Below, in pieces: positions 10,998 through 63,300 of a stretch of DNA of 64,000 nt (position 1 is its first letter; each line of letters begins with the position of its first letter). This DNA comes from Corallium rubrum (Eukaryota; Cnidaria; Anthozoa; Scleralcyonacea; Coralliidae), in contig OZ035997.1 in the NCBI GenBank assembly GCA_964035015.1, positions 81,293,269 through 81,357,268 on the forward strand. The letters run 5' to 3'. The position numbers were made by a program, and so were the translations under genes. The notes under the pieces were generated by a model, which saw only the letters and a list, made by a program, of their open reading frames with translations, ran no database searches and was not told the DNA's origin.

Positions 10998-11989
10998 AGT
11001 TTGGTACCATCAGCATAATAACACACACTTGGGTGATGTTATAATGGCCGATGTGTCATTAAAGTATGAATGTATGTAATTGTATGTGAGGAACATGACT
11101 GGTTCAAAGTTATTTTTATGATGAATGTCTTTTTACTCAATCTATGCATCAAAATTTATATCAAAATGAACATCAAGATATGGATAACATACTTGTGACA
11201 AAATTACATACTCAAAGGTTCAAACCACTTATAACATTGAATATAAATCCTAATGGAACAATAAAGCTACTGTCCATTGCCAATCTCAAACTCAAAGACA
11301 AGGAACAGTTGGTAAAAACACAAATGGTACATAAAAGCTTCCTACTCAGCATAAGAAATATATTTAACTCGTTTAGTAATATTAACTATTAAGCACATAA
11401 ATAATAATGCAAAAAATTATAAAGATACTGTCAATGTCAACAAACTGTTTCCTCAAAGTCTGTCATCTTCATGAATGTTCCTTGTGTTCTCACATTTTGG
11501 ATTTTGTTTGCAATAGTTTTCATGAGGCTTTAACAGGTCCTGAGTTCAGACCAATTCAGAAAACCTATGAACATTGCAATTGCTCGACCAAAGGCGTTTA
11601 GAAAGGCCAGTATAAAGATCCAGAATGTTAGCGTTCGGTTAACTCTGTACCGGCGGTATTAAATATTTATGGCATGTAGAGACCTTCTAAGCAATGAGCA
11701 AAATATAACTGTAGTCTGCATGTTTATCGTTGTCGGTTGTAGTCCAGTTCCAGACCCAATGTCGGTTGCTCGAAAACGTTTTGCAAACACCGGCGGAAAA
11801 GTTTATAAACAAGATACTTGCCAGCCGCATAACTGACTTCAAACACTTCCATGCCAAGCGTGCAGCTGGCAAAAACACTTCACTTTCAACTATGTACTCG
11901 AACTCGACCGAAATTAAAATAAAGATGCCGCCTGCAGTTTCGCAAAGCCTCTTTTGGCAGGTAGCCCGAGTAATGACAGCTTCTTGGCT
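10998..11989. other. Non-coding stretch with two short shared open frames
   Basis: Short plus-strand frames (11,144-11,392 and 11,407-11,601) also occur in copy B (49,701-49,907 and 49,981-50,175). The first diverges in its C-terminal part because of a frame change. I recognise no family. Similarity between duplicated copies this close does not by itself argue for coding. Confidence 0.35.
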
Positions 11990-12290
11990 CGAATCAACAA
12001 GTGAATCTGAAACTAGCCAATCACGAATATGAAACTAGAAAATGCCGGGGGGGGGGGGGGGGTAAAACGCCAAAATGGGGCTAGTCCTTTACCGCAATAT
12101 AGACTTGCTTTAAAGAGTTTGAGCTTATATATTTTGAAATGACAATTGTTAGAATGTTAGTGTTAAGATATTTTTTCAAACAGTTTGTAAGTTGAGTTAA
12201 AACAATTATAGAAAAAACCCCTAAGTTGAGTAACCCCCCTGATTTTGCGTTTAAGCACTCGTTTCACTTCTGGATTTTCCCTAGTGCTGC
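11990..12290 (-). repeat. Inverted copy of the ~200-bp-phased repeat
   Basis: Matches the 9,400-9,560 and 9,240-9,330 sections in reverse, including a GGATTTTCCC version of the phased motif at 12,274. It has a poly-G run at about 12,046-12,062. The copy-B counterpart (50,570-51,245) is about 400 bases longer, so copy A has a deletion near 12,285. Confidence 0.65.
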
Positions 12291-12782: not shown

Positions 12783-12789
12783 AACAAAC
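12783..12789 (+). repeat. Target-site duplication, left copy
   Basis: AACAAAC directly before the left inverted repeat. It matches 23,616-23,622 exactly and occurs once at the empty site 51,751-51,757. Confidence 0.88.
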
Positions 12790-13039
12790 CACGGGCTTTA
12801 GGAAAGGCTCAGTATGGCTCGAGTGAAAAGTTGTTTCAGCATACGATTATAAACAAAAAATTGTGTATTTGTCTTACCTTAATGTTCAATGAACTTTCTT
12901 ATGTATGATACAAAGTCTATGGTATCTTGAAATACGTTACAATCGCTTCGCAGTCTTCCCACATTCACTGAATATCCTTCGATTTGAACGGCCATGTTTA
13001 CTAGGCCCAATCCTTCAAACTGTCACGCGGCTTACGAGT
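12790..13039 (+). repeat. Left terminal inverted repeat (250 bp)
   Basis: It matches the reverse complement of 23,366-23,615 without gaps. I see two mismatches: TCTTACC against TCTAACC, and TCTATGG against TCTAAGG. After a short divergent spacer, a further 26-bp block (13,048-13,073) matches 23,309-23,334 in reverse. Confidence 0.93.
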
Positions 13040-13047
13040 ATTCTTGA

Positions 13048-13073
13048 AACCCAAAAAACAAGAGGGTAGGATC
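13048..13073 (+). repeat. Subterminal inverted block, left
   Basis: This 26-base block (starting AACCCAAAAAACAAG) is repeated in reverse at 23,309-23,334, separated from the main repeat by unequal, unrelated spacers: 8 bases on the left and 31 on the right. Subterminal inverted motifs are known transposase- or enhancer-binding elements in P elements; that role here is inference. Confidence 0.8.
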
Positions 13074-13276
13074 AAAGTGGGTGTGGTACTCTTCTAAACC
13101 AATCAGCTATTTGGATTGCATACCATGTGATCTGTTTGAATCGTCAAGAGCGGGATGAACGTTCTGACGTCACAATAAACGTCAGAATTTTAAAAAATCG
13201 CCCGGTCGGAGCCTGGAAGCTATATTTTCCATGATATTTTCGCGCAAAATTCAAATTATTTAATTACATATTCGAA

Positions 13277-15644
13277 ATGCCGACACTGAATCCTGTTCTA
13301 AACTACGGACAAAAATACACGGACGAACAGTACAGAGTCCTGGAGTTATTTTCGAAAGGATTCAGTTTTTTCCTGACTGGTAAAGGTGGCACTGGGAAAT
13401 CCTTCGTGTTGAAAGGAATAATACAACATGCCCGAAACGAATTTGGACCAGAAGCGGTAGCAGTAACTGCTCCTACTGGAAAATCGGCTCTGAATATCGG
13501 TGGCCAAACGATTTACTCCTGGGCTGGTGTTGGTCTTGGGAAAGGAACGAGGTACCAACTTCTTGATAAAGTTCTAACCAACAAAGAATGTTGTGGGCGT
13601 TGGAAGAAATGTAAAGTGCTCATTATCGATGAAATATCTCTGCTTGGATTGGATTTGTTCGAAAAACTTGAGTTTATTGCTCGACGAATTAATAACACTG
13701 AATCACCCTTCGGAGGAATACAATTAATTTTTTCTGGAGACTTTTATCAAATTCCACCAGTCAATGAAGAAGGCCAGAAATTGGAATACTGTTTCCAGTC
13801 ACCAATGTGGTTGAAATGTCTTGACTTTTCGGCTGAAATTCAACAAGTCATTAGACAATCCGAGCCAGAATTTTTAGCATTGCTTAACGAAATCCGACAA
13901 GGCGGCAGTCTATCATCTTTTGCAGTCAGTATGCTAAACTCTTTGACACGCCCCATAGAATGGATGCAAGGCGAAAAAGTTATCAAACTTTTTTCAACAC
14001 AAGAGCAAGTCCAAGATGAAAACAACAAGATGTTGGATTCATTACCTGGAAATACCCATGTTTTTAATTCCATTGATGGAGGAAATCAAAAAAGCATGGT
14101 CGATAAGAAATGCCCAGCATCAAAAACTATCTTGTTAAAGATTGGTGCACCTGTTATGCTGATCAAAAACTCACCTAATGTGGAACTTGTCAATGGGTCA
14201 CTTGGAACCGTGGTTGGATTTGTGCACAACTATCCACAGGTGCTGTTTGAAAATGGCAAAACAATAGTTGTGCGGGAGTACACTTGGTCAATATGTGATG
14301 GTCAAGGAGTTGCCAAATCTACTCGACGACAATTGCCTATCCTTCTAGCCTGGGCAATCACCATCCATAAATGTCAAGGGCTAACTCTCCCTAAAGGAGA
14401 AATTAGCCTGTCCAAGTTATTTGTTCAAGGTCAAGCTTATGTTGCTTTGTCTAGAATAACAACACTCAGTGGTGTTCATGTTTTACCAGGATTTGACCTG
14501 AAGTTACCCCCTGTAAGTAAATGTGTCCAGCAGTTCTACAAAGAAGGTGTGGTACCAGTTGATGCTGTCAACTGTTTGAACAACATCCCTATACGTATGG
14601 TTACAGCTGACCAACCAGAAGAGAGCTTGAACAAAATACAAGACGGGAAAGCTGAACCTGCTATAGCAAATGACTGGAAACACATTCTTCCACTTCCAGC
14701 AACAGTAAAGGTTGACCAACTACTACATGGTATGGTTGATGACAAAATGAATTCACAAGAAACTAAATCATTACTAATGGATATTGGTTTTGGTAAAAAG
14801 ACTGTTCCCCCAATGCTTCTCAATTTTATCTGTCACAGTTGGATGAAACTGGACAAGTTGGTAACAAGGCCAACCACTGATGAAGTTGTAGTTGTGTTGA
14901 AAAAGAATTGGGTTGGCTATGCTGGAGCCCTTCATAAATTGAAAATATCAAGAGATTTGTCCAACAGATGGATCGAAGTCTTGATATCTTCTAAAGTGTC
15001 TGTTGGAGAGAGGATTTTGAATTCAGTACAACGGTCTGCAATGGTACGACTACTTGACAGGCTGCATGCAATGCTTATAGGTAAGTGACATTGTGCTTTT
15101 GTTATTGAAAAACCCCACCATCCCACCCAGGGAAATGTGGAGCATTATATCTTTCAAAATAGATAGGAGAAAATTACCCACTTTTGTGGGCCATTGTACA
15201 GTACCAGTTGTCCCATTATGCCCCTCTGTGACTGCATGCATGTACAATGTAAAAATAGGCAGTCAATGACTGCATGTGGCTATAATAATAAGTAAAAAAA
15301 TAATTTGCTTTCTCTGTAGATTCTATTTATCATGATTGCCATGATGAAAGGAATGAAGTCAGTGACACCACTGAAGAAATTCCTCCCAATGTCCATATTT
15401 ACACCAAGGAATGTCAAAGCAAAATCAGGTAGATAACAGTTCTATTATAACATAAATTTTAAGTAATGTTTACATGTATTGTGGCCTATATAATTGTAAT
15501 AAATTATTTTTAAATTATTATTACAGGTACATAGCAGGATGGGCAGTCAGAAAGGAGATAGCTGCATGTAACAGTTACCTATCTAAAAACAAGGGTTCAA
15601 AGTCTAAAAAGACCAATAACAGATTGCAAAAAGAAGAAAAATAA
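13277..15644 (+). CDS. PIF1-family DNA helicase, exons 1-3
   Basis: Exons are 13,277-15,080, 15,320-15,428 and 15,527-15,644, with consensus GT-AG borders and agreeing phases; as spelled the product is 676 residues. The first 400 or so residues form an SF1B PIF1-like helicase: Walker A GKGGTGKS (35-42), motif Ia TAPTGKSALNIGG (64-76), Walker B IIDEISLL (116-123), motif III GDFYQIPPV (154-162), and motifs V and VI (AITIHKCQGLTL near 360-371, AYVALSRI near 387-395). All key residues are present, so it should be an active ATP-driven 5'-3' helicase. Residues about 430-600 match nothing I know. Exons 2-3 add a segment with YIAGWAVRK, resembling the C-terminal region of P/THAP9-type transposases. 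The stop at 15,642 comes 14 bases before a strong donor (GTAAGA at 15,659). One extra A in the A-run near 15,627-15,631 would keep the frame open into the exon at 16,052, so a frameshift or sequence error is likely. The start ATG is the first in frame, 238 bases inside the left repeat. Confidence 0.88.
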
Positions 15645-16051
15645 AATTTGTTCTGAAGGTAAGACTTTATGATCAGAAAGATTTTACTTACAGAAACATC
15701 AGAAATTCAACGTTCTAGAATGCTTCCTATTTATCAGGAGTAATGTCCAAAAATATGAAGAATTTACCAGGAAACAAGAGAATGTTTTCAATGAATGTAT
15801 ATAGAAGAATTGTGGTGGGTTAATTAGGAATATAATGCAATGTGGCCGGGCAACACTATTGAAAATTGTTGCACTCTGGAAAAACACCAGGTTTGACAAC
15901 ATGCCAATTGTTTAGCAATATTGTATTCTGCCTATCATGGTCACACAATAAATTTTATTCAGAAGAGGGTAGAGCTCAGTTAGAAAAAAATCAAACCTTG
16001 AAAATAAAAGATGTTTTCAATTATAATTATGGAACTTTAATGTATTTTTAG

Positions 16052-17128
16052 AAGTTTACTCAATCACAGAGTCAACTGGAAGCTGAATCCAAGCACCAAG
16101 CCAGCCTTCAGTATATCCAGTCACATAACAGAGGGGGTTTGGCGAATGTCTCAGATGATTTGTATGAATTTACTTTATCTGTGGAGACTTCGTGTAAACA
16201 GCATTTTAATGTCAATTCATTTCACAAGCACAAGTGGGACTCATGCAAAATTGGACGTGAAGAAGTAAGGAAAGATCCAATGGTTACAATAGCTTTCAAC
16301 AAATTAATGTCTACTATTGATGCAGATGAGAGTGGTGACAGTACCATTGATGCTAATGTGAAAGGAGCTATTCAAAGCAGGATCATGAAAAGATACCTCA
16401 ATATGAGATGCAAAGAGTTTGTGAAAGTGATTAAAAGAGAAATGAAATGTGAGAAGAGCAAAGAACATAGGAAGAAAGTGCAAGAAAAGAAAAACAAAGC
16501 TAAAAATGGAGGCAAAGATGTTTTACGTCAATTAACGGAGGATCATTGTGATAACAAGACTGCAGCATTCTTTACATTAAAAGTCATGGCAGCTAAAGGT
16601 AAGAACAATTTTACCAAAATGACAAAAAATGAACTTCATTTTATTTGTCATTTGTTTGGAATAAAATTCAAGGAATCTGAAACTAAAGACAAACTTTCTT
16701 CAGTTCTAATTAACAAAATCAATTATGCACAAGAAATGACCCACCCCACCAGGTGTACCACTGAAGAACTAAATGCAATACATGCAAGGAAAAACAAGAA
16801 ATGTGCATCATGTGATGCCAATAGAGAAGTGTTAGGAACACTGACAAACATTGCTAATGTTTCCAACTCAGTGCAAGCTTCTCAACTGCCTTTGCACTCA
16901 GTTCCACCAAATAACTTGCCAATGAGAAACAATCCTGAAGCAACAACTAAAGTACGTCGAAAACAATTTAGACCAACTGATGGCCAGAAAACAATTCTTC
17001 AACAAGATCATTCAAATGGAATAACAGCTGAAGTGATAAAGCAAAGGGCAGCAGAATTTACGGTTGATGTATCGCAGATTCGATCATGGCATAAACGTTT
17101 TAGACTAAAAGAAAAATCTCGGGCATGA
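16052..17128 (+). CDS. Transposase-C-terminus-like, SAP-like and homeodomain-like exon
   Basis: An open frame of 358 codons begins at a splice acceptor (AG at 16,050-16,051) and has no good ATG near its start, so it is best read as the last exon of the helicase gene, out of frame by one base as spelled. It begins with SHNRGGLANVSDDLYEF, like the RGGL...SD.L..F motif near the end of many transposases. A lysine-rich stretch (16,380-16,510) follows, then a SAP-like helix pair (about 16,606-16,730, KMTKNELHFICHLFGIKF) and a CASC motif near 16,803. The C terminus (about 16,950-17,125) looks like a homeodomain: a basic arm RRKQFRPT and a last helix VSQIRSWHKRFRLKEK in the place of WFQNRR. These point to DNA binding. 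With the upstream exons the product would be about 1,040 residues. A separate gene is the alternative. Domain assignments are by eye. Confidence 0.72.
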   Translation, partial: KFTQSQSQLEAESKHQASLQYIQSHNRGGLANVSDDLYEFTLSVETSCKQHFNVNSFHKHKWDSCKIGREEVRKDPMVTIAFNKLMSTIDADESGDSTIDANVKGAIQSRIMKRYLNMRCKEFVKVIKREMKCEKSKEHRKKVQEKKNKAKNGGKDVLRQLTEDHCDNKTAAFFTLKVMAAKGKNNFTKMTKNELHFICHLFGIKFKESETKDKLSSVLINKINYAQEMTHPTRCTTEELNAIHARKNKKCASCDANREVLGTLTNIANVSNSVQASQLPLHSVPPNNLPMRNNPEATTKVRRKQFRPTDGQKTILQQDHSNGITAEVIKQRAAEFTVDVSQIRSWHKRFRLKEKSRA

Positions 17129-17769
17129 AAATATTTATACAAGACCCCTTGCAAACTGGAAAGCATGGGAAACAATTAGATTTACAACAAAAGAAAACAA
17201 TGCACAGAAAGCAATTTGCTCTCCATTTGTTGTTCTAAGTGTTTTTGGCCCAGCTGCTAACCTATGGCCCATACATGTACAGTATATAAGTATTATACAT
17301 ATATACATATTATGTATATGTACAGGGTATCCAAAAAAAATAACTCCATCAGATACAACTACCAGTAATGACCTTTTTTTCAAAACTAAACATGCCAGGC
17401 ATGTTTATATAAAAGCCCTAGGTTCTGATTTTATACACTTCTAATGATCTGGTGCCATATGTAGCTGGCTTTTTCTGTTCTGTTGTTTTTCAAACAATTA
17501 CAGATATAGCAAGAATTATTGGCTTTTGGGTTGGCATACCATTACCCATCCATTGTATTGGGGATCATTCTTTTAAAAGGACATACTGTACAGCTACATG
17601 TAGTTTGTATAAAGTATAGGTACAAGTATAAATAGTTATATAAATGTAATGCAGACTGTTTTTACAGTCTTATATGGTTCATCATTTGCTGATACAGTTG
17701 TTATTTCCATTTAGCATTTAATCAGTTGAAGAAACTTATCTGTAAAATGTGTGTTGATTATTCTTTATG
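17129..17769. other. Convergent intergenic region of the transposon
   Basis: It separates the 3' ends of the plus-strand helicase gene and the minus-strand transposase. I see no gene; both 3' untranslated regions should lie here. Confidence 0.6.
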
Positions 17770-20700
17770 TTACTTGGCAGAATTCCCATTTGAAATTGTA
17801 AGATGTGATAGTCGGACAATCCCATTGATACCTGAACCTGTTAATGTAATATAACACAAGTGTATATTATAATTAATTAAAAGATTTTTTGTAGTTTTCA
17901 GCACATATACATGTGTATATTTATTTATCTCTGTTTATTTATAGTAATTAGAGCTTTTGGCCTGTGCATAGGCGGTATATAACTAACAATTTTAATTATT
18001 TTATATTTTTAATTACATTCTGTTATGGATAATGTAGAATATACACACATTTCACTTACCATATTGAAGTTCTGTTGGGTTGTTGTTTTGCCCATTTTGG
18101 GCCCTTTGCCTTCCAAAAAATTGTTCAAGGTTATCCTGATTTGTTCTGTTGCTTCTGATTTCACATCCTGGGAATAAGACGAACAAGGTTTCACAGTACT
18201 TCTGAAAGGCAAATACCATAGAGCGGATATCAAAGCTTAGTTTCTTTGATATAAACATCTTTTCTCGAACCTTGGCCCGCATTCCATGTGAATTCTCTTC
18301 AACCCATGTAGCCCAATCGTCAAACCAGGATGCACATGATAGATTTTCTGAAAACCGTGAATCGTCTAACGATCTATGTACAAAAAAAATAAATTATCCA
18401 AGTATCCAACTATGTGTAGGTGAATAAATAGGTCAAGGTGTACCTGTACGGAGCTTTGCTTTTAAAATTCTTCAGTAATGTGGAAGTTACTTTAAGTAAC
18501 TCAATAGTCTTGTCGAACGTTGACACCGTTTCGCCTGTGATATTCTCTATGTGTTCTTTGTGATACTATAATGATAAAATAAAGCATGTTACGGCAAGGA
18601 TTTAAGCTTACTTGTAGAAAATAGAAATGTAGTGGTCTTACTTTTATACGTGACTATCACTAGAGTATCATACACGCTGCAGTCGAAATTGGTATGGGAT
18701 ATTCCAGGAACGCCATTACCAGGAACCAGGTCAATTTCAGTCACGTGACCATGCAAATTTCACTAATTCACTCAGTACGTACCTGAATAATTTCCATCAT
18801 TTCTACGCCAAGGACGTCATCTGCAAGATGATTTCGCATCCGACTGGCAGAATTTAGATAGAAATGGTCATCTGTTAGTTTTCGAAATGTGCTGATGGAA
18901 TTCGTTTTGTCGTGATTATAAGCATCAACCCAGTGCTTCCAGAGAATTTCCTTCCCATCATATCTGAAATGCCGAGGTGTTTTCCCACTTGAGCTACTCT
19001 TCTCCAGGTTATTCCTAATCTTTTTGAAGTTGTGCTGATTAGAATGAAAAGCGCACCGTAAGTTTATTGAAGAGAATTTAGGTGGATCAATATAAGTGTA
19101 CTGTATATTTTGCTAATTTAAACCTGAGCCTATAATTTTACATGTAATACGACCTATAATAGAACAACATATTTTATTGCAAAAATTTTTTGTATATTTA
19201 TATATTGAAAGGTTAGGAGATGGTTAAGGGTATTATAAACATTTTAGTTTATTATTATTTTGTGTTTGGAAAGTCAAACATCGTAAATATTTACTCACAG
19301 AAGAATCCATCATGAATGAGTGTGCTTCACCACTGTACGGATTTGTTGTGGTGAACGAAGAAGATACAGCATCTTTATCATCTTCAAAATGCATAGATAT
19401 AAAAGCCCTATTGGCCTGTGCCCCATCACAAACAGCCATATGAACATAGAACTTTATTTCTTGTAAAGCCTGAACTATGTCCCAGTATGTGTGAAACAAA
19501 GTAACTGGATCGACTTGTGCTGTTGGATAATATGATACAGGGAATTCAAAACCTTCACAGCCAACAAAAGTGAATTGTAAAATATGGGTTGCCATTTCAG
19601 CTTTGGGTTCCTTACCTATCAATTACAAATTATACCATATAATCACATGCAATATAATAAATTTTCATGCATTTAACAAAATGTGACATCCAAACTAGCA
19701 CAGTACTGTACATAATACAGTATTATCAGTATTATTAACTAACATTTGAATATCAATGATTGTATTTTTTCATTCATCTCCCCTATGTTGACGAGACCAC
19801 ACAATTCAAATGTGTCACCAATCTTGCGGAGTTGTAGATCTCCCTGAGAAAAATATAAAATAACATATGGGCCTGGTTAAACAATGTATGTGTGATATCC
19901 ACTATGAATTGTAGTAAAAATTTATATTATGTATGAAAGGGATATTAATTATAAGCAACAAATAGAGTTTGCCTGAAGAGACATTTCATCAAACATCACA
20001 TAACCATGCTTCCCTGCCACACTGACACATTCTTTTTGAGCTTGAGCAACCATCCAGTCAAAGTGTTCCTTGCAAATACCATGTTTCTGGAGAACTTTAT
20101 TTTTTACACTTCTTAAATACCTCCCTGTAAAAGAAATTTAAATGTCAATATACATGTATATAGTCTGATCGAGTTCTTAGGCTGTATAGATAATTAACAG
20201 ATTGATAGTTTTATTTTCTATGTTATAGCTAGCTGTTATGCATGTCTATATACAAATTGTACTGATTATTCCATTTATTCAAATGTATGAAGCAATCCCT
20301 ACTCAGGTATGTATGTACTACTGTTATATTAGTAGAAATCACATGATTGTTTATTTTTAAATTACCCATTCCTACTGAGGAAAGCCTTGATTATTTTATT
20401 GTGGCCAATACGACACAATTTTATGTAACATCAGAGGGAACTGACCATGGACTGGTTGGGGTTGGGCTATGCAAGGAATCAGGATTAATAGCTTAATAAC
20501 ATGTATAATGTTAAGCCATTTGTATGTATATATAGGAATGATGGTAAGAAAAACAATCAAATTTGAGAATTACATATAAATGGTATAAATTATATGCTTT
20601 ATAGTACCCACATAGAACACCATACTTGCCAAACTGATATAAAATCAGTCATTGTGTAAATTAAGGTAAACATTTACCTGAAGGGAGTTTAATATACCCA

Positions 20701-23110
20701 GCATCTCTAAACTCTTCATATCCCTGTTTACTTCTTTGCCATAAACGAAGACATATTTCAAGAAACCTGTATAAGGGTTAAATTTGTATTAATATTTACA
20801 ATTTATTTTTTTTTACAGTTGCTTTTTATATATTGTAACTAGTTATCTGAGATGTCTTTGTAAAACACTTTACAGTGATGTTGGCAATCCTCAATAAAGA
20901 TGATAATAGATTATTATTATTATTATTATTACATTAAATCATGTTGTGCTTTACAAACCTTGGGTGCCAAACTGTTTTTCCAGACTGGAGTACTTCCCTC
21001 TGGATTGACCAAAAAAAGCATCATCATCAAGAGTACCAGTTGAATCACAGTGCTTTTCTGTTTCTTTCATTTCATCATCAAGTTGGTTGAACATAATTTT
21101 TAAGTCATCATTGTCACTTTTTGTTAATGTTAGCATTTTTTTTTCTTCTTCCCTTTTCTTTTTTGCATATTTTTCTCTTCTCTCAGCATTGATTGTCCGT
21201 CTATGTTGATCTGCACATCTTTTCATTTTCTCAGCATCAGACAAAAATCTCCAGTTTGAAGTACTTGAGCTTTTGGATTTTTGAATTTCTTTGTCAGTTT
21301 TGTTTGTGTTAGCTTTGGATTTATATAATGAATTGCATAGAATTATGTTCAGTTTTGAGCATGATTGGCATCTAACACTTTTGCAATTTTTAGTGACAAG
21401 ATATTGACAGCTGGTAGACCGTATTATTTGAAACGTTTGCAACTGACTGTTGGACATTGTTTCTAATTTTCCTGTTATCTTTCCTTTTTGATCTACACAT
21501 GGCTTTACATGATCGAATTCTTTGTTGTCACAACCAGGGCATAAAATACTTCCTATACCAATAGTGTGGAGTAATTTATCCAAATCCAATACAATAACTA
21601 ATTTGGCAGCAACAATATTTGAGAAAATCTCACAATTAAGATCTGTTCCATGAATTTTTACTTGCCAAGTATGATCTGTGTTGATGGTAATACTTCTGGC
21701 TACCTGGATTCCATTTATAAGCTCCTTATCAAAATATATGAATTTGAGACTTTGCTCTGTATTTTCAACCAACAACCAATTAATGAATGATATAGATGAA
21801 CTGGACACATTACTGAAATGGTTTGCAAGTTTTCCAATAGTTAATATACTGGTTGTTGTGGGTTGAATATGAACTTCAAATGGAGAGGATGACATGACCA
21901 AGTTCTGATTGACTTCCAGATTTGAATAATATGCTATAAATATACATTTGTTATTATAAGTTTATACATTGAGTTATGGTCATGTCTTTTTTTTAAAAAA
22001 CCTTTCACCTTTAATGAGTTATATTTATATATTTCATTGTGATGTCATGCATATATACAGTAGAAAACACATATAAGAACCTAGTGATTAAGAACTTGTA
22101 GACTATTTTTTTTTTATTTAAACCCCCATTAAATAAGAACATGTTGAGCCTAACAATTGAAACAGGCTGTTATTTGGAAAATTAACCAGACCAGGTGGTC
22201 CAGGCATGAATCAGAGACAGTTTAAAAATAATTTAGTGTTGTTGTAGTGTTGTTGGGCATAAACAACCTGAAATAGATCAGAGGACCTAGGGTGTGTGTA
22301 CAGTTTTTACTTAGAATGTGGTGTATAATTCTTTTATATATTAATTAACAAAGAGACTACAACTAAACAGTTCTTTGACCAATAGCAAGAAAATATGAAC
22401 CTATTGAAAAACCTAAATAGCCTAAATTCTCAACAGACACCAAATATATAAGAACCTTTTTGAGCTAACGTTCTTATACACAGGTTTTCACTGTATTCAA
22501 TCAAATCAAATAAATCATTTTAGAGCAGATTAATTACATATCTACTTTAATACTATACAATAAATGTAAAGCTTATACAGCAAAAACCTGCTTGTAAAAT
22601 CTGGCTACTTAGGTTCTTAAATAAGTTCTATATATTTTTTGGCTCAATGTTGCTGGTAAAAAATAGGAAAACTAATATGACCGTGTTTCATTTGTTAAAC
22701 TAAATGGTGACACAGATCCTTATAAGATTAAGCTTATGTTAAACCTACTTGCTTTCGATCCAGAAGCAGTTTTCACTCTCTTACTTAGAAGAGAAGGGAA
22801 GATTTCATGCAGAAGTTTTGCAAAAAGAAGATTTGATAATGGCGTTCGTTTGTACATGCTGCATGTTCGTACGTAGGCAGTATACGCAGTATTCAGCGAT
22901 AAGCCATCACAGTTGTTGTTCAAAATAACACATTTGCGAGTTATATGGGCATCACTACAAATAATGAAGAATCATAATTTTAATATGCATATTTGATCTT
23001 GGACATATACTTCATTTATGTTGATTGTTAACTGTTTTTAGACTTGCTTACACGCTAAAATTTTCCTTCCCAAAATATAGTCCACTGTTGACACCTTTAC
23101 GTTCATCCAT
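17770..23110 (-). CDS. P-element/THAP9-like transposase, 11 exons, intact
   Basis: Exons in transcript order: 23,110-23,052; 22,954-22,749; 21,933-20,955; 20,766-20,678; 20,124-19,973; 19,843-19,744; 19,615-19,299; 19,034-18,783; 18,565-18,444; 18,373-18,060; 17,837-17,770. Lengths sum to 2,658 and every phase agrees, giving 885 residues with no stop. Residues about 30-97 resemble an RFX-type winged helix (FAKLLHEIFPSLLSKR, then SGSKATYYSNL). A Cys cluster (CPGC 220-223, C234, C264, C272, CQSC 277-280) may bind zinc, and 320-359 is strongly basic. Residues 415-448 (LWQRSKQG... IKLPSGRYLR) match the segment leading into the catalytic core of P/THAP9 transposases. The RNase H-like core shows FDEM (D490), VCDGAQANR (D592), DSSHNFKKIRNNL (D632) and DNLEQFFGRQRAQNG (E842), the expected acidic residues. 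Intron 5 uses a GC donor. The protein ends soon after E842 and lacks the usual C-terminal domain, which resembles exons of the plus-strand gene. It should cut and join the element ends; activity is inferred. Confidence 0.88.
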
Positions 23111-23308
23111 CTTTTCTGTACGGTTTGTTTATACTTTCAAACTTTCCCGCAAAATAATAATTCGAAAATCAAGCTCGCATATAAAGCGCCTGGCTAGGTG
23201 GACTGGGGCCGGGGACAGGTTGTTTTCCATATATGGAAGTTGGGGACACGTTTATGCCATATATGGTAGTGTCCTTTCATCTCGCTCTCGACGATGAAAA
23301 AATCCAAA

Positions 23309-23334
23309 GATCCTACCCTCTTGTTTTTTGGGTT
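23309..23334 (-). repeat. Subterminal inverted block, right
   Basis: Right-hand partner of 13,048-13,073, with no mismatch seen. Confidence 0.8.
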
Positions 23335-23365
23335 AAAAGCAGGACGTGTGACGTCATTATCTAGC

Positions 23366-23615
23366 ACTCGTAAGCCGCGTGACAGTTTGAAGGATTGGGC
23401 CTAGTAAACATGGCCGTTCAAATCGAAGGATATTCAGTGAATGTGGGAAGACTGCGAAGCGATTGTAACGTATTTCAAGATACCTTAGACTTTGTATCAT
23501 ACATAAGAAAGTTCATTGAACATTAAGGTTAGACAAATACACAATTTTTTGTTTATAATCGTATGCTGAAACAACTTTTCACTCGAGCCATACTGAGCCT
23601 TTCCTAAAGCCCGTG
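23366..23615 (-). repeat. Right terminal inverted repeat (250 bp)
   Basis: Partner of 12,790-13,039. The minus-strand transposase starts 256 bases inside it, so this repeat probably includes or adjoins the transposase promoter. Between repeat and start lie two copies of CCATATATGG (about 23,228 and 23,251), a CArG-box-like palindrome. Confidence 0.93.
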
Positions 23616-23622
23616 AACAAAC
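23616..23622 (+). repeat. Target-site duplication, right copy
   Basis: AACAAAC directly after the right inverted repeat. Comparison with the empty site fixes the duplication at 7 bp; no 8-bp reading fits both ends. Confidence 0.88.
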
Positions 23623-24689
23623 GCAAAATATAACAAACCGAGATCTTGGTCGATTATACATAGCTCGGGAAAAGGCCTGGGCACGAGGCAACGTCAAGAA
23701 TAGTGGTCAACAAGCTTCCCGGATTTTTCCTGACTTTCTAAAAAGTTGTAAAAAATTGAGAACAACACTGTCGAAATCAAAATTTATTCCACATGGGTAT
23801 ATTTGACATGCGGGGTTCATCGATCACCTTGTAATGTTTATCCACGATCCGCGTTTTTACAATCAGCGACAGCTTTTTGGCTCGAATCTGAAACTGAATC
23901 TGAAACTGGCCAGTTACGAATATGAAACTAAAAAATGCCGGGAGGTTCGACCCCAGAATTAGACTAGTTTTTTGCCCAATAATAGCAATATAGATTTGTT
24001 TTAGGGAGTTTGAAGTTTATATATTTTAAGATGCCAAATGTTGGAATGTTAGTGTTAAGAAACCCGATTGCAAATCCCCCCTGATTTTTTGTTTAAGCAC
24101 TCGTTTCACTTCTGGATTTTTCTTGTCCAAACGAGTAGTACTTTGAAAGAAAAAATATTTTTTCAATGTTTAAAAGAAGTTTTTAAAAGAAAAAGATGAC
24201 TCTCACGCGATTTTGTTGTCGACTTTGTTGTTTACGTTCGTGTCAGATTACTAAAGCCGCGTTTGGCTGGCTCTCTTTCTGGATTTCTCCTGGCGAAACG
24301 GTAAGCGTTTGAAAACTGTAATTTGCTTTAGACTATCAATTATATCATAATTATTGACATATTCGACAAAAGAATGGCGTAAACCTTGTACGTTTTGTCA
24401 AGAAACGGATTATATTTTAACGAGCGCTCGAGACAACATGTCGAAACGTCGCTAGAGCGTTATGTCTGGTTCGCTATCTGGATTTTTCCTGACCAAATAA
24501 AGCGCTCTACAGGCTCCAAAATAGGTTTATTTGAAGCTGACTTTCATGGACATGGGTATATTTGATAAATGATTGGCACCCACAGATAGACTTCGCGGCA
24601 ATGTACGGTTTTCTACGCAGAATGCACCTCTCTTTCCAGATTCGAATCTGAATCTGAATCTGAATGAAACTGCGAATCTGAAAACATAG
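23623..24689 (-). repeat. Inverted copy of the ~200-bp-phased repeat array
   Basis: Reverse-orientation relative of 7,900-8,880, with the phased motif at about 23,721, 24,113, 24,281 and 24,480. It continues copy A to the right of the transposon and corresponds to 51,760-52,800. No gene seen. Confidence 0.7.
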
Positions 24690-31372: not shown

Positions 31373-34300
31373 TCACAACGTCATTTCGCGAGATTTTGCT
31401 TTTATTTCTTCAATATCGTGCTTAGAAAACTTAACGTCTTCGCCGTAGATAGTAAATGGTGCCCAAACCTGTAGATCTCGAAAAAAAAGCTGTTGATGTT
31501 GTTGAAATGTGTTCATTGTCCTTCTCAAAGCCTCGCAAACCGACGTTTCGTTGCAAATTTCTTTATAGAAATTTTCCATAAACAATTGTGTACCTTCATC
31601 GTCAATAGGCCAGAGTGTGGCAAGAACGGAGCGAGCACCGGCTGCAAGAAATGCGCGTGCTAGACCAACGACTCCTTCTGAAGAGACATTCCCTCTTCCT
31701 GTATAACAACAACATAGAACAACTAACCGGGCATTTATGGGAATTTCAATAATATCTTTTTCTCTTACAAGATACGATTCTTCTTTGGGTAAGCTTGGGC
31801 TAGTTGAATTAGGATTAGGAGCAAGAAAAATTTCACCATGTCCTCCCTCCCCATGTGCGGCAATGTGAATTATGCCAGCGTTTAGAATTAATTGTAAAAC
31901 TCGTTGCTTTACGGCCTTGTCTTCTACTAAGGGTTTAGCGTCAAAAAGCGGTGCAAGACATTGCGCTTCAGCTGTGGCGGATGGGAGCGGTTCCGGTTCA
32001 AATTCTTTTCGACGAAGACTAACTTTGCCAATAGTTGGATTACCAACAAACAATGCAAAACCTAGACTAGCTTGATGTGATTGCTTCATGCTGGCATAAA
32101 GAGTGTGCAGAGATGGTGTTATTTGAATACTGTAATTTTGTGATATCGAGGAACCGTTTTCATCTTTCAATGCACAAAATGGCACAAAAAACAAAAATTT
32201 GTCAGGAACAATAATCAATTTGTTTCCTTTAATAAAACCCTTAACAGGATTGATGAGTTTCTGAAACAATTCCTGTAAAATATGAGTATGTTGTTCACTA
32301 GAAGGAGGTCTAGCCGGAGACCTCAGTTCGCCAACGCCAACAGCCTGATCATAGCTTTGCATTACATTTTTGATTTTTGACTCAGTATCTTGGCGTGTGT
32401 TGGGAAGAAATATTCTTTCGCAAGACTGGGCCTTTTTGGAAAGTATATTTTCGGAGTTCTCTAATTCACAATTTTCCGATCCTTTATTGGAATCAATAAA
32501 TTTCTCATTCACTAACACCTGGCTCCATGGTATTTCCGCAATGTTATCATGACGATCAGAAGTAGAATTTGAACTTAGTTTAAACAAGGAGGAATCACGA
32601 TTTAAATGAACAAAAAAAGTCTTAAGCAACATTTTCAAAATATCGAAAATAGAATTCTCAGGTAAAGTCAGGTCATTATTTCGTTCCAAATGTATGTGTT
32701 TAATATCATCCACGCCATTTAAAACCCATATATGAAGAAACTTATGATCAAAAGAGTAAAATAAAACAGTGGAATTATTTTTTTTGAGCAGAATACCCTT
32801 CTCAATATTGTCTATTTCTAATCTCTCGTCATTTTCGTCAATATTTTTCCAGGTCTCACGTGTATAATCGACCATGTCATCAATCTCTGATTTCTTTCGT
32901 TTCTCGATAAAAGCATGCAGCGCCTTGGCCTTTCCAAGATCAATAACTAACAATGCGGCTTCAATGCGTGTAAACAAAATAAAACAATGCATTAGAGTGA
33001 CATATTGTTGAAAGTATGCACTAGTGAATGATATCTTATTTTTGTCAACGTTCAAGTGGAATAAAATCTTATCACCACACATAACAGATCTCTTAAGAAA
33101 TGACACAGCGTTTTTTAAGTTGCTCACATCTTCCCTTTCGCGAGTTACAAACAAATACAGTGAAAAGTAAGAGACCCCTATGTTTCCTAAAGAAATGCAT
33201 TCCAAAGTTCGATCACCAATTTCTAAACTAATATTAGATGCTTCTCCAAAAAACTTAAGAGATTTTTGAAATTGCCCCATACTCAAATAGGCTCTCCCTA
33301 AATTTGCATTGTTACTTGCTATTCCTGACCGATCTCCTATTTCAGTGTTGATTTCTAGACCTTTATTGTAATAGTAAATGGCTTTTTCATACTGCCCCAA
33401 ACTAAGATAAGCATTCCCTAAATTTCCATTGTTACTTGCTATTCCTGACCGATCTCCTATTTCAGTGCTGATTTCTAGACCTTTATTGTAATAGTAAATG
33501 GCTTTTTCATACTGCCCCAAACTAAGATAAGCATTCCCTAAATTTCCATTGTCACTTGCTATTCCTGACCGATCTCCTATTTCAGTGCTGATTTCTAGAC
33601 CTTTATTGTAATAGTAAATGGCTTTTTCATACTGCCCCAAGCTAAGATAAGCATTCCCTAAATTTCCATTGTTGCTTGCTATTCCTGACCGATCTCCTAT
33701 TTCAGTGCTGGTTTCTAGACCTTTATTGTAATAGTAAATGGCTTTTTCATACTGCCCCAAACTAAGATAAGCATTCCCTAAATTTCCATTGTTACTTGCT
33801 ATTCCTGACCGATCACCTATTTCAGTGCTGATTCCTAGACCTTTACTGTAATAGTAAATGGCTTTTTCATACTGCCCCAAACAACAATAGGCAGACCCTA
33901 AATTTCCATTATTTTTTGCTATTCCTGACCGATCTCCTATTTCAGTGCTGATTTCTAGACCTTTATTGTAATAGTAAATGGCTTTTTCATACTGCCCCAA
34001 ACTAAGATAAGCATTCCCTAAATTTCCATTTTCACTTGCTATTCCTGACCGATCTCCTATTTCAGTGCTGATTTCTAGACCTTTATTGTAATAGTAAATG
34101 GCTTTTTCATACTGCCCCAAGCTAAGATAAGCATTCCCTAAATTTCCATTGTTGCTTGCTATTCCTGACCGATCTCCTATTTCAGTGCTGGTTTCTAGAC
34201 CTTTACTGTGATAGTAAATGGCTTTTTCATACTGCCCCAAACTAAGATAAGCATTCCCTAAATTCCCATTGTCACTTGCTATTCCTGACCGATCTCCTAT

Positions 34301-37300
34301 TTCAGTGCTGATTTCTAGACCTTTATTGTAATAGTAAATGGCTTTTTCATACTGCCCCAAACTAAGATAAGCAATACCTAAATTTCCATTATTACTTGCT
34401 ATTCCTGACCGATCTCCTATTTCAGTGCTGATTTCTAGACCTTTATTATAATACTGAATAGCTTTTTCATACTGCCCCAAACAATGATAGGCAGTCCCTA
34501 AATTTCCATTGTTACCTGCTATTCCTGACCGATCTCCTATTTCAATGCTGATTTCTAGACCTTTATTGAAATAGTAAATGGCTTCTTTATACTCTGCCAG
34601 CCCTAGACGCGCATTTCCTAATCTTACGCAACATGTTGCTTTGCCTGATTTGTCTTTAAGCGGTCATCTGCAATCTCTTCAGCTCTTAGTGTATACTCTG
34701 ATGTTTTACTATAATGTGAAGTATTAAGATATATTTCTCCAATTCTAAGAAGAATATCCATTTGCAAACTCCTTACCTCAACTGAATTACTTAATAATTT
34801 TTCAAGCTCAAGATAGTACTTCAACATTTCCCAACATTCCGCTTTTTCTTCACATTTCTTAATAACGGACAATAACATAAGCGTTTTTAACATTAAGTTA
34901 CCTTGAAGAAGTTCAATAGATCTATGTACTATATATTCAAAGTCATTCTTTCTTCCTTTGACTTGTAGAATTTTTGCCGTCTCAGCGACGAACTCTATTA
35001 CCATTTCAATGTTTCTGTTTCTGTTTCTTGCTTGAAAAATCTGTTTTCAGTTAAAAAATCTTAAGATTACTTTATATATCAATAAATTTAAACAAAACAC
35101 CGATTTGTAACTTTTTAACGTTTAACAATTTAAACGTTTGTGACAGACGTTTGTACAGAACAGAGCTTTCGTAGAGATAGTGTATTGTAGTGTAGTGTAG
35201 TGTAGTGTAGTGTAGTGTAGTGTAGTGTAGTGTAGTGTAGTGTAGTGTAGTGTAGTGTAGTGTAGTGTAGTGTAGTGTAGTGTAGTGTAGTGTAGTGTAG
35301 TGTAGTGTAGTGTAGTGCAGTGCAGTGCAGTGCAGTGCAGTGCAGTGCAGTGCAGTGCAGTGCAGTGCAGTGCAGTGCAGTGCAGTGCAGTGCAGTGCAG
35401 TGCAGTGCAGTGCAGTGCAGTGCAGTGCAGTGCAGTGCAGTGCAGTGCAGTGCAGTGCAGTGCAGTGCAGTGCAGTGCAGTGCAGTGCAGTGCAGTGCAG
35501 TGCAGTGCAGTGCAGTGCAGTGCAGTGCAGTGCAGTGCAGTGCAGTGCAGTGCAGTGCAGTGCAGTGCAGTGCAGTGCAGACGTAAAAACACCGGGATTG
35601 TTCCATACCTGCAAGCAAGTTGTTACAAAGCTGTTCCAAGCCATTACCGGGATGCAGTCACACTGGTTGTTCCCGGTTTGTTAACAAGTCTGTAACAGGT
35701 TGTTGACAACTTGTAACAATGTTGATGACTTCAACGGGCATTTAACAAGTTGTTACAACAATTTGTTATGCTGCTCTGTACTTAACAAATTGCTATAAGG
35801 TTGACAACAACAAGTCGAAATATTGCTTTTATAACTGAAATCACAACTTATTGCGGTGTTGTGTGGATAATAACGGTCGGCAATCGGTTAGTTGCCGAGA
35901 AAAAAAATACGACATGGCCGACCATTTCTGTTCTGGTCGGACATTTTAACCGATTAAGAAATATAAATTAAAAGGAAAAAAAAATCACATATTATGTCTA
36001 TCTGAAAAATATATATTAGTATATGCATTAACAGGTATCTACTAGAGTGATACCCACTTGGTAATCGATATTTGGAAAGACAACGTGTTACTGCCATTTA
36101 CAATCAACTTTTAGGCTTGCGATTTGTTTCATGTTTGTTTACGCTTGAAAGTTGGAAGTTTCACCAGAAAACGGTGAACGTTTAAAAACAAATCAATCAA
36201 CTTGCAGCATAATTTTGAAAACTTTTTCTGGTGAAACTTGCAACTTTAAAACGTAAAGAAACATTAAAAAAATCGCAAGCCTAACGGTGGCTTGCAAATG
36301 GCAGTATATTCTCCCGCACGTTGTGGCACACATAAATTAAATCACTGGTGCACGGCTTGGATTGACCAAGATCAACTCCAACATTGTCAAGGACAAAATA
36401 AACGGCAAAGTTACTCTATGCGGGTATTGCATTGCAATTTCCAATGCAAGCTCGATACATCACATGTTTAGTTATATATAGGTGGAATGAGCAAATTGCG
36501 AAACCACCAGAATCCAAAGGCATTCTCATGTCGACTCGTGCCAGTTACTCTGGCACTATTTTTGTTTGTCCAATAACAACTGGTTTGCTACACATATTCA
36601 CATAACGCATTTCATCAAACTTGCTAATTAATTTTTGTCATACCATTCCTTAGAAAATGGGCCGACCAATCTCGTCTAATGTCCGAGCAACTTTATAGCG
36701 AGTCGGACATTTGTCCAATCAGAGCGAAATCGTTATAATCGACACTGTTGAGGTGGCTCCATACAGTTTCTTGAAAAGTGGAAAACACACGTTTCAGACC
36801 CAAAATCTTGTACGTCGATATTTTCCTAGAAGAATGAAACTAAGTGTCTTGTATAGAACAGCATTTTGAGAACGAAAAAGTGCGTAACCGTGGTTGCTAT
36901 GGCAACAAAGACGTTCCAAAATGGCTGCTAATTTTCGTTTAAACTAGTTTAATTCGCACAAAACATCGGTGACCCTTATTTCTTATTTTATTAAAAATTT
37001 TGTTCCAGTATGAGTAGTCAATACGCGAAATTTAAAAAAATCTGTAGATCCAAAATTTTTCAAATAAAAAACCCGAGATTATTCTTTATAAAGATTTCTT
37101 GGAGCTCCAGAATTTGTTAAAATTGGCATTTTGAAACGTCATTGTTGCCATAGCCACAACAGTTACGTACTTTTCCGTTACAATTTCTGATTCTGAAAAT
37201 GCTGTTCTATACAAGTCAGTTAGTTCCATTTTTTAAACGAATAATCAATGTAGAAGTTTTTGGATCTGGAACGTGTGTTTTCCGCTTCTCAAGAAGCTGT

Positions 37301-60386: not shown

Positions 60387-63300
60387 TCACAAGGCCATTT
60401 CGCGAGATTTTTTTTTTATTTCTTCAATATCGTGCTTAGAAAACTTAACGTCTTCGCCGTAGATAGTAAATGGTGCCCAAACCTGTAGATCTCGAAAAAA
60501 AAGCTGTTGATGTTGTTGAAATATGTTCATTGTCCTTCTCAAAGCCTCGCAAACCGACGTTTCGTTGCAAATTTCTTTATAGAAATTTTCCATAAACAAT
60601 TGTGTACCTTCGTCGTCAATAGGCCAGAGTGTGGCAAGAACGGAGCGAGCACCGGCTACAAGAAATGCACGTGCTAGACCAACGACTCCTTCTGAAGAGA
60701 CATTCCCTCTTCCTGTATGACAACAACATAGAACAACTAACCGGGCATTTACAGGAATTTCAATAATATCTTTTTCTCTTACAAGATACGATTCTTCTTT
60801 GGGTAAGCCTGGGCTAGTTGAATTAGGATTAGGAGCAAGAAAAATTTCACCATGTTCTCCCTCCCCATGTGCGGCAATGTGAATTATGCCAGCGTTTTGA
60901 ATTAATTGTAAAACTCGTTGCTTTACGGCCTTGTCTTCTACTAAGGGTTTAGCGTCAAAAAGCGGTGCAAGACATTTCGCTTCAGCTGTGGCGGATGGGA
61001 GCGGTTCCGGTTCAAATTCTTTTCGATGAAAACTAACTTTGCCAATAGTTGGATTACCAACAAACAATGCAAAACCTAGACTAGCTTTATGTGATTGCTT
61101 CATGCTGGCATAAAGAGTGTGCAGAGATGGTGTTATTTGAATACTGTAATTTTGTGATATCGAGGTACCGTTTTCATCTTTCAATGCACAAAATGGCACA
61201 AAAAACAAAAATTTGTCAGGAACAATAATCAATTTGTTTCCTTTAATAAAACCCTTAACAGGATTGATGAGTTTCTGAAACAATTCCTGTAAAATATGAG
61301 TATGTTGTTCAATAGAAGGAGGTCTAGCTGGAGACCTCAGATCGGCAACGTCAACAGCCTGATCATAGCTTTGCATTACATTTTTGACTTTTGACTCAGT
61401 ATCTTGACGTGTGTTGGGAAGAAATATTCTTTCGCAAGACTGTGCCTTTTTGGAAAGTATATTTTCGGAGTTCTCTAATTCACAATTTTCCGATCCTTTA
61501 ATGGAATCAATAAATCTCTCATTCACTAACACCTGGCTCCATGGTATTTCCGCAATGTTATGACGATCAGAAGTAGAATTTGAACTTAGTTTAAACAAGG
61601 AGGAATCACGATTTAAATGAACAAAAAAAGTCTTAAGCAACATTTTCAAAATGTCGAAAATAGAATTCTCAGGTAAAGTCAGGTCATTATTTCGTACCAA
61701 ACCTATGTGTTTAATATCATCCACGCCATTTAAAACCCATATATGAAGAAACTTACGATCAAAAGAGTAAAATAAAACAGTGGAATTATTTTTCTTGAGC
61801 AGAATACCCTTCTCAATATTGTCTATTTCTAATTTCTCGTCATTTTCGTCAATATTTTTCCAGGTCTCACGTGTATAATCGACCATGTCATCAATCTCTG
61901 ATTTCTTTCGTTTCTCGATAAAAGCATGCAGTGCCTTGGCCTTTCCAAGATCAATAACTAACAATGCGGCTTCAATGCGTGTAAACAAAATAAAACAATG
62001 CATTAGAGTGACATATTGTTGAAAGTATTCACTAGTGAATGATATCTTATTTTTGTCAACGCTCAAGTCGAATAAAATCTTATCACCACACATAACAGAT
62101 CTCTTAAGAAATGACACAGCGTTTTTTAAGTTGCTCACATCTTCCCTTTCGCGAGTTACAAACAAATACAGTGAAAAGTAAGAGACCCCTATGTTTCTTA
62201 AAGAAAAATATTCGAAGCTTCGATCACCAATTTCTAAACTAATATTAAATGCTTCTCCAAAAAACTTAAGAGATTTTTGAAATTGCCCCATACTAAAATA
62301 GGCATTCCCTAAATTTCCATTGTTACATGCTATTCCTGACCGATCTCCTATTTCAGTGTAGATTTCTAGACTTTTACTGTAATAGTAAATGGCTTTTTCA
62401 TACTGCCCCAAACCAAGATAAGCATTCCCTAAATTTCCATTGTCACGTGCTATTCCTGACCGATCTCCTAATTCAGTGCAGATTTCTAGACCTTTATTGT
62501 AATAGCAAATAGCTTTTTCATACTGCCCCAAACAACGATAGGCAGTCCCTAAATTTCCATTATTATTTGCTATTCCTGACCGATCTCCTATTTCAGTGCT
62601 TATTTCTAGGCCTTTATTATAATATTGAATAGCATTTTCATACTGCCCCAAACAATTATAGGCAGTCCCTAAATTTCCATTATTATTTGCTATTCCTGCC
62701 CGATCTCCTATTTCAATGCTGACTTCTAGACCTTTATTATAAAACTGAATAGCTTTTTCATACTGCCCCAAACAACGATAGGCATTCCCTAAACTTCCAT
62801 TGTCACTTGCTATTCCTGACCGATCTCCTATTTCAGTGCTGACTTCTAGACCTTTATTATAAAACTGAATAGCTTTTTCATACTGCCCCAAACAACGATA
62901 CGCACTCCCTAAATTTCCATTGTCACTTGCTATTCTTGACCGATCTCCTATTTCAGTGCTGATTTCTAGACCTTTATTGTAATAGTAAATGGCTTTTTCA
63001 TAGTGCCCCAAACAGCGATAGGCAGTCCCTAAATTTCCATTGTTACGTGCTATTCCGGACGGATCTCCTATTTCAGTGCTGATTTCTAGACCTTTATTGT
63101 AAAACTGAATAGCTTTTTCATACTGCCCCATACTAAGATAAGCATTCCCTAAATTTCCATTGTTACTTGCTATTCCTAACCGATCTCCTATTTCAGTGCT
63201 GATTTCTAGACTTTTATTATAATACTGAATAGCTTTTTCATACTTCCCCAAACAACGACAGGCAGCCCCTAAATTTCCATTGTTACTTGCTATTCCTGAC

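Follow-up and report, generated by a model that had tools for sequence, protein, structure and literature searches.

A 10.8-kb P-superfamily-like transposon of Corallium rubrum with a PIF1-family helicase gene beside its transposase gene

A stretch of 64,000 nucleotides from Corallium rubrum (assembly GCA_964035015.1, contig OZ035997.1, positions 81,293,269 to 81,357,268 of the forward strand; hereafter the window) contains an element of 10,826 bp (12790-23615) that is delimited by 250-bp inverted repeats and encloses two convergent genes, a PIF1 helicase on the plus strand and a spliced, P-like transposase with a TNP fold on the minus strand. An earlier note on this DNA had described a bounded 10.8-kb element with both genes, and this description holds, given the near-perfect repeats (248/250), a 7-bp duplication around them, and Pfam matches to PIF1 and to the TNP fold. 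We regard this anatomy, together with a long co-inheritance of the two genes, as close to certain, and we think that the window family is probably an autonomous cut-and-paste transposon that moved recently and whose lineage is related to the P superfamily. A wider reading, with a probability of roughly one in three, is that an ancient P-like lineage took a eukaryotic PIF1 for its own repair, and that synthesis resembling break-induced replication, driven by this helicase, would copy the whole 9-11 kb element back into the donor gap.

The termini of the element read CACGGGC...GCCCGTG and its ends are built as follows.

12783-12789, no strand: left target site duplication AACAAAC, 7 bp (flank comparison)
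12790-13039, plus strand: left terminal inverted repeat (CACGGGCTTTAGG...), matching the right arm at 248/250 positions
13043-13073, plus strand: left subterminal inverted repeat, 31 bp, 94% complementary to 23309-23339
23309-23339, minus strand: right subterminal inverted repeat, partner of 13043-13073
23366-23615, minus strand: right terminal inverted repeat, 248/250 against the left arm
23616-23622, no strand: right target site duplication AACAAAC, 7 bp (flank comparison)

The whole genome (474 Mb, 312 contigs) was searched with the left repeat (best 40 of 180 candidates) and with its outer 80 bases (best 40 of 169), so that totals of family ends are lower bounds. Among the 40 left-repeat matches, at least 10 inverted pairs were found within 12 kb, four of them 10,824-10,829 bp and six 790-817 bp long, while 20 matches were unpaired; the combined coordinates of both searches hint at further lengths of about 2.76 kb (C1:7.41M) and 1.76 kb (C52:5.98M). 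The four full-length copies, i.e., the window copy and three others, differ by 1-14 pairwise mismatches in about 10.82 kb (26 variable columns including indels), and all four carry both helicase and transposase, the protein of helicase exon 1 being 100% identical throughout. Flanked copies of both genes at other loci, which the earlier note had proposed to look for, are thus present in the same genome, and because the three further full-length copies lie elsewhere and carry different 7-bp duplications, the element is no chance pairing. The duplication is exact in nine of ten family copies (the window copy, three long and six short ones) and agrees at 6/7 bases in the tenth; by eye, several of these 7-mers resemble GTTNAAC. 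When the flanks of the C106 copy were joined with a single 7-mer, this 300-base query matched three places in the genome over 300/300 bases (99-100%), the C106 site itself as two halves overlapping by 7 bases, and seven more rows in part (12 rows in total). The uninterrupted target together with the 7-base overlap is therefore direct evidence of insertion with a 7-bp duplication, a length of 7 as in Galileo rather than 8.

Copies of the inverted repeats that enclose only the transposase, which had been named as evidence against a two-gene family, were not seen: with all 106 candidates of the transposase search scored, only four matches were near-identical (99%) to the window family. Neither gene is present in the six short copies fetched: these are products of internal deletion that retain 383 bases from the left end and about 404 from the right, joined at an altered junction. 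Their common length suggests one founder deletion that later spread.

The two genes were also searched for with queries of their own. The transposase query (19236-19622, around exon 7) gave 70 genome matches, and the helicase search gave 109 rows from the best 73 of 627 candidates, of which the 73 main rows were used and 36 short secondary ones dropped. A helicase match lies within 15 kb of 19 of the 70 transposase matches (3.3-10.1 kb apart), vs. about 0.32 expected by chance, and the orientation is convergent in all 19 pairs. These pairs are non-independent, as four come from the window family and near-copies of other families are included; seven paired helicases form distinct rows in the helicase tree. 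Pairing is found in 19/27 short-exon transposase matches and in 0/43 of those with open reading frames (ORFs) of 200 or more codons, the latter against the best 73 of 627 helicase candidates; ORFs of 1007 codons hold seven of the 70 matches, none with a helicase match within 15 kb. Among the diverged transposase loci fetched first, six of eight have a helicase. The same groups recur in both gene trees (window + C103; C1c; C12 + C1:74.70M; C25 + C1:61.66M), with branches of 93/92 and 83/82 for window-C103 and an open order of the last three groups in the transposase tree. The pairing is old, because the convergent pairs far exceed the chance number, four diverged families are alike, and the tree groups match. 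Nearby transposase matches are lacking for 12 of the top 30 helicase rows; two of these unpaired helicases, C229 and its near-duplicate C8:53.05M, group with Helitron-like rows, and five (C42, C280, C1:55M, C15, C123) fall among the transposon helicases, C15 also having the C-terminal motif described below.

The helicase is encoded by an ORF of 603 aa (13277-15088, plus strand) with Pfam matches to PIF1 (2.4e-37) and to the 2B domain (4.1e-8), and its residues 14-407 match PIF1 structures at E about 1e-83, vs. 1.2e-18 for Helraiser. The gene is modelled as follows.

13277-15080, plus strand: helicase exon 1, PIF1 helicase core with GKGGTGKS, LIIDEIS and AYVALSR, read by eye (Pfam, structure matches, gene model)
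15320-15428, plus strand: helicase exon 2 (GT-AG junctions and frame, model)
15527-15644, plus strand: helicase exon 3 with the conserved motif RYIAGWAVRK, common to relatives; stop at 15642 in the window copy only (model)
16052-17128, plus strand: 358-codon open frame (GGLANVSDDLYEF...), probably a further part of the C-terminal domain of the helicase; its counterpart in relatives C103 and C12a is in-frame with the preceding motif

Of the earlier claim of a PIF1 helicase with all motifs, the Pfam and structure matches confirm PIF1, the individual motifs being read by eye; the helicase tail is frameshifted in the window copy. The C-terminal domain is specific to the lineage and conserved across relatives (motifs RYIGGWA..K and HISD..F.FF..LE), and a Pfam scan of its presumed continuation at 16052-17128 gave no match. 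A homology of this domain to the C-terminus of P transposases was suspected by eye but found no support, as Pfam gave no match and the downstream stretches of L053/L054 have no such motif; SAP-like and homeodomain-like tails were likewise seen only by eye, found no support in the Pfam scan, and are not claimed.

In the helicase tree (20 rows), 12 rows are of the transposon type (seven of these come from paired loci) and join human and yeast PIF1 (99/98), and this assemblage is split from five Helitron-like rows at 100/99. The element helicase thus groups with eukaryotic PIF1 and not with Helitrons. These data bear on the idea of a composite, in which a P-like element would have received an inserted Helitron or a Helitron helicase. 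PIF1-like helicases in transposons are indeed best known from Helitrons, and one PIF1-like match in the genome, the Helitron-like row L050, adjoins an ORF with a Helitron_like_N domain (2.6e-31; no such match was found in L061, the ORF beside row L052, these being the two neighbours tested for the five rows). We nevertheless consider a composite hardly credible: joining the transposon helicases with the Helitron-like rows was rejected by the approximately unbiased (AU) test (p 0.004), Helitron_like_N was not matched in the element ORFs scanned, and the structure matches to PIF1 are far stronger than that to Helraiser. A Helitron origin of the helicase was ruled out on the tree split and the AU test. 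The capture of a host gene in place was rejected as well: what is likely the host's own PIF1, the gene nearest to the human one, lies elsewhere (C8:30.975-30.978M, two exons, 135 aa, 29% of the tree columns) and joins human PIF1 at 99/97, apart from the element helicase, so that the latter is probably not the ordinary host gene which the earlier note had considered. In the tree with this likely host gene, the helicases of the window group are placed next to PIF1 (90/87), separately from the nine remaining transposon helicases.

A further explanation, which we hold to be quite improbable, is that the helicase was captured, be it from the host or from some other element, and rides along as a passenger of no use in mobility. 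Gene capture by transposons does occur, and the tail of the helicase is frameshifted in the window copy. Against this, the layout is convergent in every pair and the gene trees show the same groups; the matched stretch is stop-free in 17/19 paired helicases, at 28-39% identity to the window helicase outside the window family; the frameshift is absent in all three other full-length copies; and dN/dS is 0.17 at dS 0.62 (C25 vs. C280). This is the only pair with divergence enough to carry weight, the other values being 0.32 (C103 vs. C1:68.96M, dS 0.019), 0.52 (C15 vs. C185, dS 0.024), and, for the C-terminal part, 0.54 (C12a vs. C12b, dS 0.053).

The transposase was modelled on the minus strand with 11 exons and 885 aa, stop-free, on the basis of splice consensus, frame, and similarity to relatives.

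23052-23110, minus strand: transposase exon 1 with ATG (gene model)
22749-22954, minus strand: exon 2, RFX-type DNA-binding domain (Pfam RFX_DNA_binding, 2.8e-8 for the exon, 1e-7 for the spliced protein)
20955-21933, minus strand: exon 3, first codons finish the RFX domain (model, Pfam)
20678-20766, minus strand: exon 4 (model)
19973-20124, minus strand: exon 5, MFDEMSLQ, GC donor (model)
19744-19843, minus strand: exon 6 (model)
19299-19615, minus strand: exon 7, RNase H N domain, CDGAQANR (Pfam, model)
18783-19034, minus strand: exon 8, insertion between the RNase H halves (model; matched in 8/8 relatives)
18444-18565, minus strand: exon 9 (model; matched in 4/8 relatives)
18060-18373, minus strand: exon 10, TNP-like RNase H C-terminal domain, NQDNLEQFFG (Pfam, model; aligned to P transposase 6p5a)
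17770-17837, minus strand: last exon (model), resembling the C-termini of relatives by eye

Three Pfam domains were matched above their curated cutoffs in the spliced protein, namely the N-terminal (PF21787, 1.3e-12) and C-terminal (PF21789, 1.3e-6) parts of the TNP-like RNase H and RFX_DNA_binding. Structure matches were weak (human RFX1, E 0.059; P transposase 6p5a at NQD..E..FFG, E 0.062; RFX5, 0.13). The candidate catalytic residues are the glutamate of the motif aligned with 6p5a, only at this E of 0.062, and two aspartates picked by eye (in MFDEMS and CDGAQ), which we take to be catalytic. No THAP domain was matched by Pfam in the element ORFs or in the spliced transposase, and an RFX_DNA_binding domain stands at the N-terminus instead. 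What had been called P/THAP9-like is therefore P-superfamily-like in its catalytic core (TNP-like RNase H) and not THAP9-like, since the RFX-like domain replaces THAP and the duplication is 7 bp long. Below the cutoff, the RFX domain was also found in the relatives C103 (3e-5) and C30:495k (2.8e-4; followed by Pox_D5, 6.4e-4); in C1:68.96M, which is nearly a copy of C103, the RFX exon recurs with a poor score, and in the other relatives the same search gave no clear RFX domain. L053 and L054, two P-like transposases with long ORFs, show sub-cutoff matches to C2H2-like zinc fingers ahead of their RNase H domain.

These features raise the question of whether the lineage belongs to a separate sister superfamily, with the RFX domain, the 7-bp duplication, and the helicase as its hallmarks, rather than to P itself. 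In its favor, the window transposase lacks not only a THAP match but also any Pfam match to the GTP-binding insertion domain (PF21788) at E up to 1, which L053 and L054, the two long-ORF relatives scanned, do have (4.1e-9 and 2.5e-7). Moreover, in the transposase tree (21 rows) ten paired rows and two helicase-less ones are split from nine long-ORF P-like rows at 100/100, a value to be read with a long-branch warning and with the paired row C185 filling 24% of the columns (L067, the tenth long-ORF locus, gave no match and was dropped). On the other side, both TNP-like RNase H halves pass their curated cutoffs, the core aligns with long-ORF P-like proteins (tblastn 29-32%), and Galileo, a member of the P superfamily, also makes 7-bp duplications (PMC2775673). 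We consider a separate superfamily unlikely, albeit a serious contender, and keep to a lineage related to the P superfamily.

Four diverged families (window, C1:74.70M, C1:61.66M, C1:68.96M) have CA...TG ends and 7-bp duplications in common, the duplication being exact in all three other families with both ends read intact. In C1:74.70M the repeats measure about 0.24-0.27 kb (80%), the ends are CACAGGG, and the duplication TTGTTGA stands beside a TTG repeat. C1:61.66M is 11,504 bp long, with repeats of about 1,785 bp at 99.3%, ends CATAGGAATCCC, and the duplication ATTAAGC. C1:68.96M has the ends CAAGGGAGC, and TTAAAAT, noted at its right end, was subsequently found at the left one. The related two-gene family of L055-L058 (C1:61.66M, C8:4.48M), with inverted repeats of about 1.6-1.8 kb (99.3-99.8%), is reminiscent of Galileo; in C8:4.48M the intact right tip is missing. 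Inverted repeats were looked for and not found at C12a, C12b, and C1c, and a collection scan with A1 gave no usable conserved stretch. C103, which also lacks one intact end, has a shorter right repeat and no target duplication; flush against its left end lies a reverse-transcriptase ORF (L015/L029, Penelope-like by eye) surrounded by a 272-bp inverted duplicate (98%), and this may explain the lack of a duplication.

Several known systems resemble the element in part. Helitrons share a PIF1-family helicase with it, but they use a rolling-circle Rep protein and have no inverted repeats, and the element helicase falls outside their clade. Kolobok elements duplicate TTAA at their target, vs. 7 bp in the element. 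AcademH is reportedly a helicase-encoding lineage of DNA transposons in animals and fungi; it has an Academ transposase, whereas only TNP-like transposase domains were found in the element by Pfam. A fungal survey (PMC10799480) gives DEAD, Helicase_C, and PIF1 domains jointly to AcademH, KolobokH or Helitron, without assigning them individually, a wording that leaves room for PIF1 in AcademH. KolobokH and Kolobok-1_CCri likewise combine a DDE cut-and-paste transposase with an accessory helicase, which in Kolobok-1_CCri lies on the complementary strand as in the element, but the pair consists of a RecQ helicase and a Kolobok transposase instead of PIF1 and a TNP fold (PMC9587614). The P element and THAP9 (Drosophila, zebrafish) agree with the element in the TNP-fold RNase H transposase, which was aligned to 6p5a as given above, and in the inverted repeats; they differ in having THAP, 8-bp duplications, and a length of 2.9 kb (PMC7776569), compared with an RFX-like domain, 7 bp, two genes, and 10.8 kb. 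Closest in its ends is Galileo of Drosophila, a cut-and-paste element with long inverted repeats (up to 1.2 kb) and 7-bp duplications of a palindrome-like consensus (GTAGTAC); the RFX-like domain and the second gene set our element apart, the mentions of a helicase in passages of PMC2775673 concerning a host gene. A P-like transposase together with PIF1 or RFX was not found among the literature matches listed, which agrees with the earlier statement that no named family has this layout; the search covered the literature and not Repbase, where a database-only entry is possible. Accessory helicases in cut-and-paste transposons are already known (KolobokH, AcademH), and what is new, within the literature searched, is PIF1 in a P-like element. 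Within the same scope, the DNA transposons with an accessory helicase are extended by a P-like group and by another class of helicase, and the DNA-binding modules of transposases by an RFX-like domain.

As for the mechanism, the RFX-like domain would bind the transposon ends and the TNP-fold core would cut and join, so that the element would be excised and reinserted by its transposase with a stagger of 7 bp. The helicase would then serve the DNA synthesis that refills the double-strand gap of roughly 11 kb from the sister chromatid by D-loop extension, and the donor site would end up with a full copy again rather than an internally deleted one, making cut-and-paste effectively replicative. 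This role in refilling the excision gap is tentative, somewhat short of an even chance, and draws on analogy: in Drosophila without POL32, the gap that the 14-kb P element P{wa} leaves is reportedly repaired efficiently only with the help of PIF1 (PMC8951532, in whose reference list PIF1 and processive synthesis in gap repair also appear), and yeast Pif1 acts in D-loop migration during break-induced replication (PMC7073672).

The main rival to gap refilling is a role in the transposition reaction itself, where the helicase could open the ends, dismantle the transposase-DNA complex after strand transfer, or steer insertion or excision to replication forks. Co-inheritance of the helicase with the transposase would suit this, and so would its conserved C-terminal domain, a possible contact for the transposase or the ends. 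We find it doubtful, though worth keeping in view, as the P transposase reaction is described as needing GTP and Mg in passages of PMC7776569, and none of the 43 long-ORF P-like matches has a helicase match within 15 kb among the best 73 of 627 helicase candidates.

Several points weigh against our main explanation, an autonomous P-related transposon whose helicase would serve gap refilling. The helicase role is assigned by analogy, and end processing or target choice could equally be its function. Deletion derivatives exist, so any gap refilling must be incomplete at times; short copies are what failed refilling would leave, and the six with their common length leave the idea untouched. In the window copy the helicase tail is frameshifted, with a stop at 15642, by a one-base difference in an A-run that is absent from the three other full-length copies, which are alike there (C106 is open beyond the site), and this may reflect either a mutation or an error of sequencing. 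The transposase model is based on splice sites and homology and includes one GC-AG intron. Two of the eight first-fetched diverged loci (C20:4.02M and C30:495k) have no helicase match, and both look defective, one with stops in an exon and the other without a match to exons 9 and 10; six more short-exon matches at five loci have no helicase match nearby. As the helicase search scored the best 73 of 627 candidates, it could have missed weak helicases in the neighbourhood of the 43 long-ORF matches. Stops fall within the match in the paired helicases C12:11.83M and C20:2.34M, and C1:74.70M has two over a longer stretch. Finally, the best helicase trees split the 12 transposon helicases into more than one clade; a single clade was not rejected either (AU p 0.23, and 0.19 with the likely host PIF1 added), and the trees would therefore fit one capture as well as several.

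If the wider reading is true, a conservative mechanism becomes a replicative one, and the element could reach a size, with inverted repeats of up to 1.8 kb, at which repair by the host alone would lead to deletion. Refilling of excision gaps from the sister chromatid is known classically from P elements, and since host PIF1 has been tied to this refilling (PMC8951532), a P-like lineage that keeps its own PIF1 across families (28-39% identity to that of the window) would be a natural experiment on the link between PIF1 and gap repair. It makes testable whether the transposon, and not the host, controls the repair of its donor site.

The surroundings of the element in the window hold further repeats. 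Direct repeats of 45-78 bp (87-96% identical) lie on both sides of the transposon, at 11975-12278 and 23868-24120, with a spacing of 11.84-11.89 kb, from which it seems that the transposon landed within an already duplicated region. On the minus strand, two closely similar long ORFs (31373-34480 and 60387-63983; 1035 and 1198 aa) consist of TPR-like repeats of ~40 residues (120-bp DNA units) followed by a domain that resembles, by eye, a CHAT-type protease, and an array of the pentamer AGTGC spans 35189-35580 with 78 copies (99% matches).

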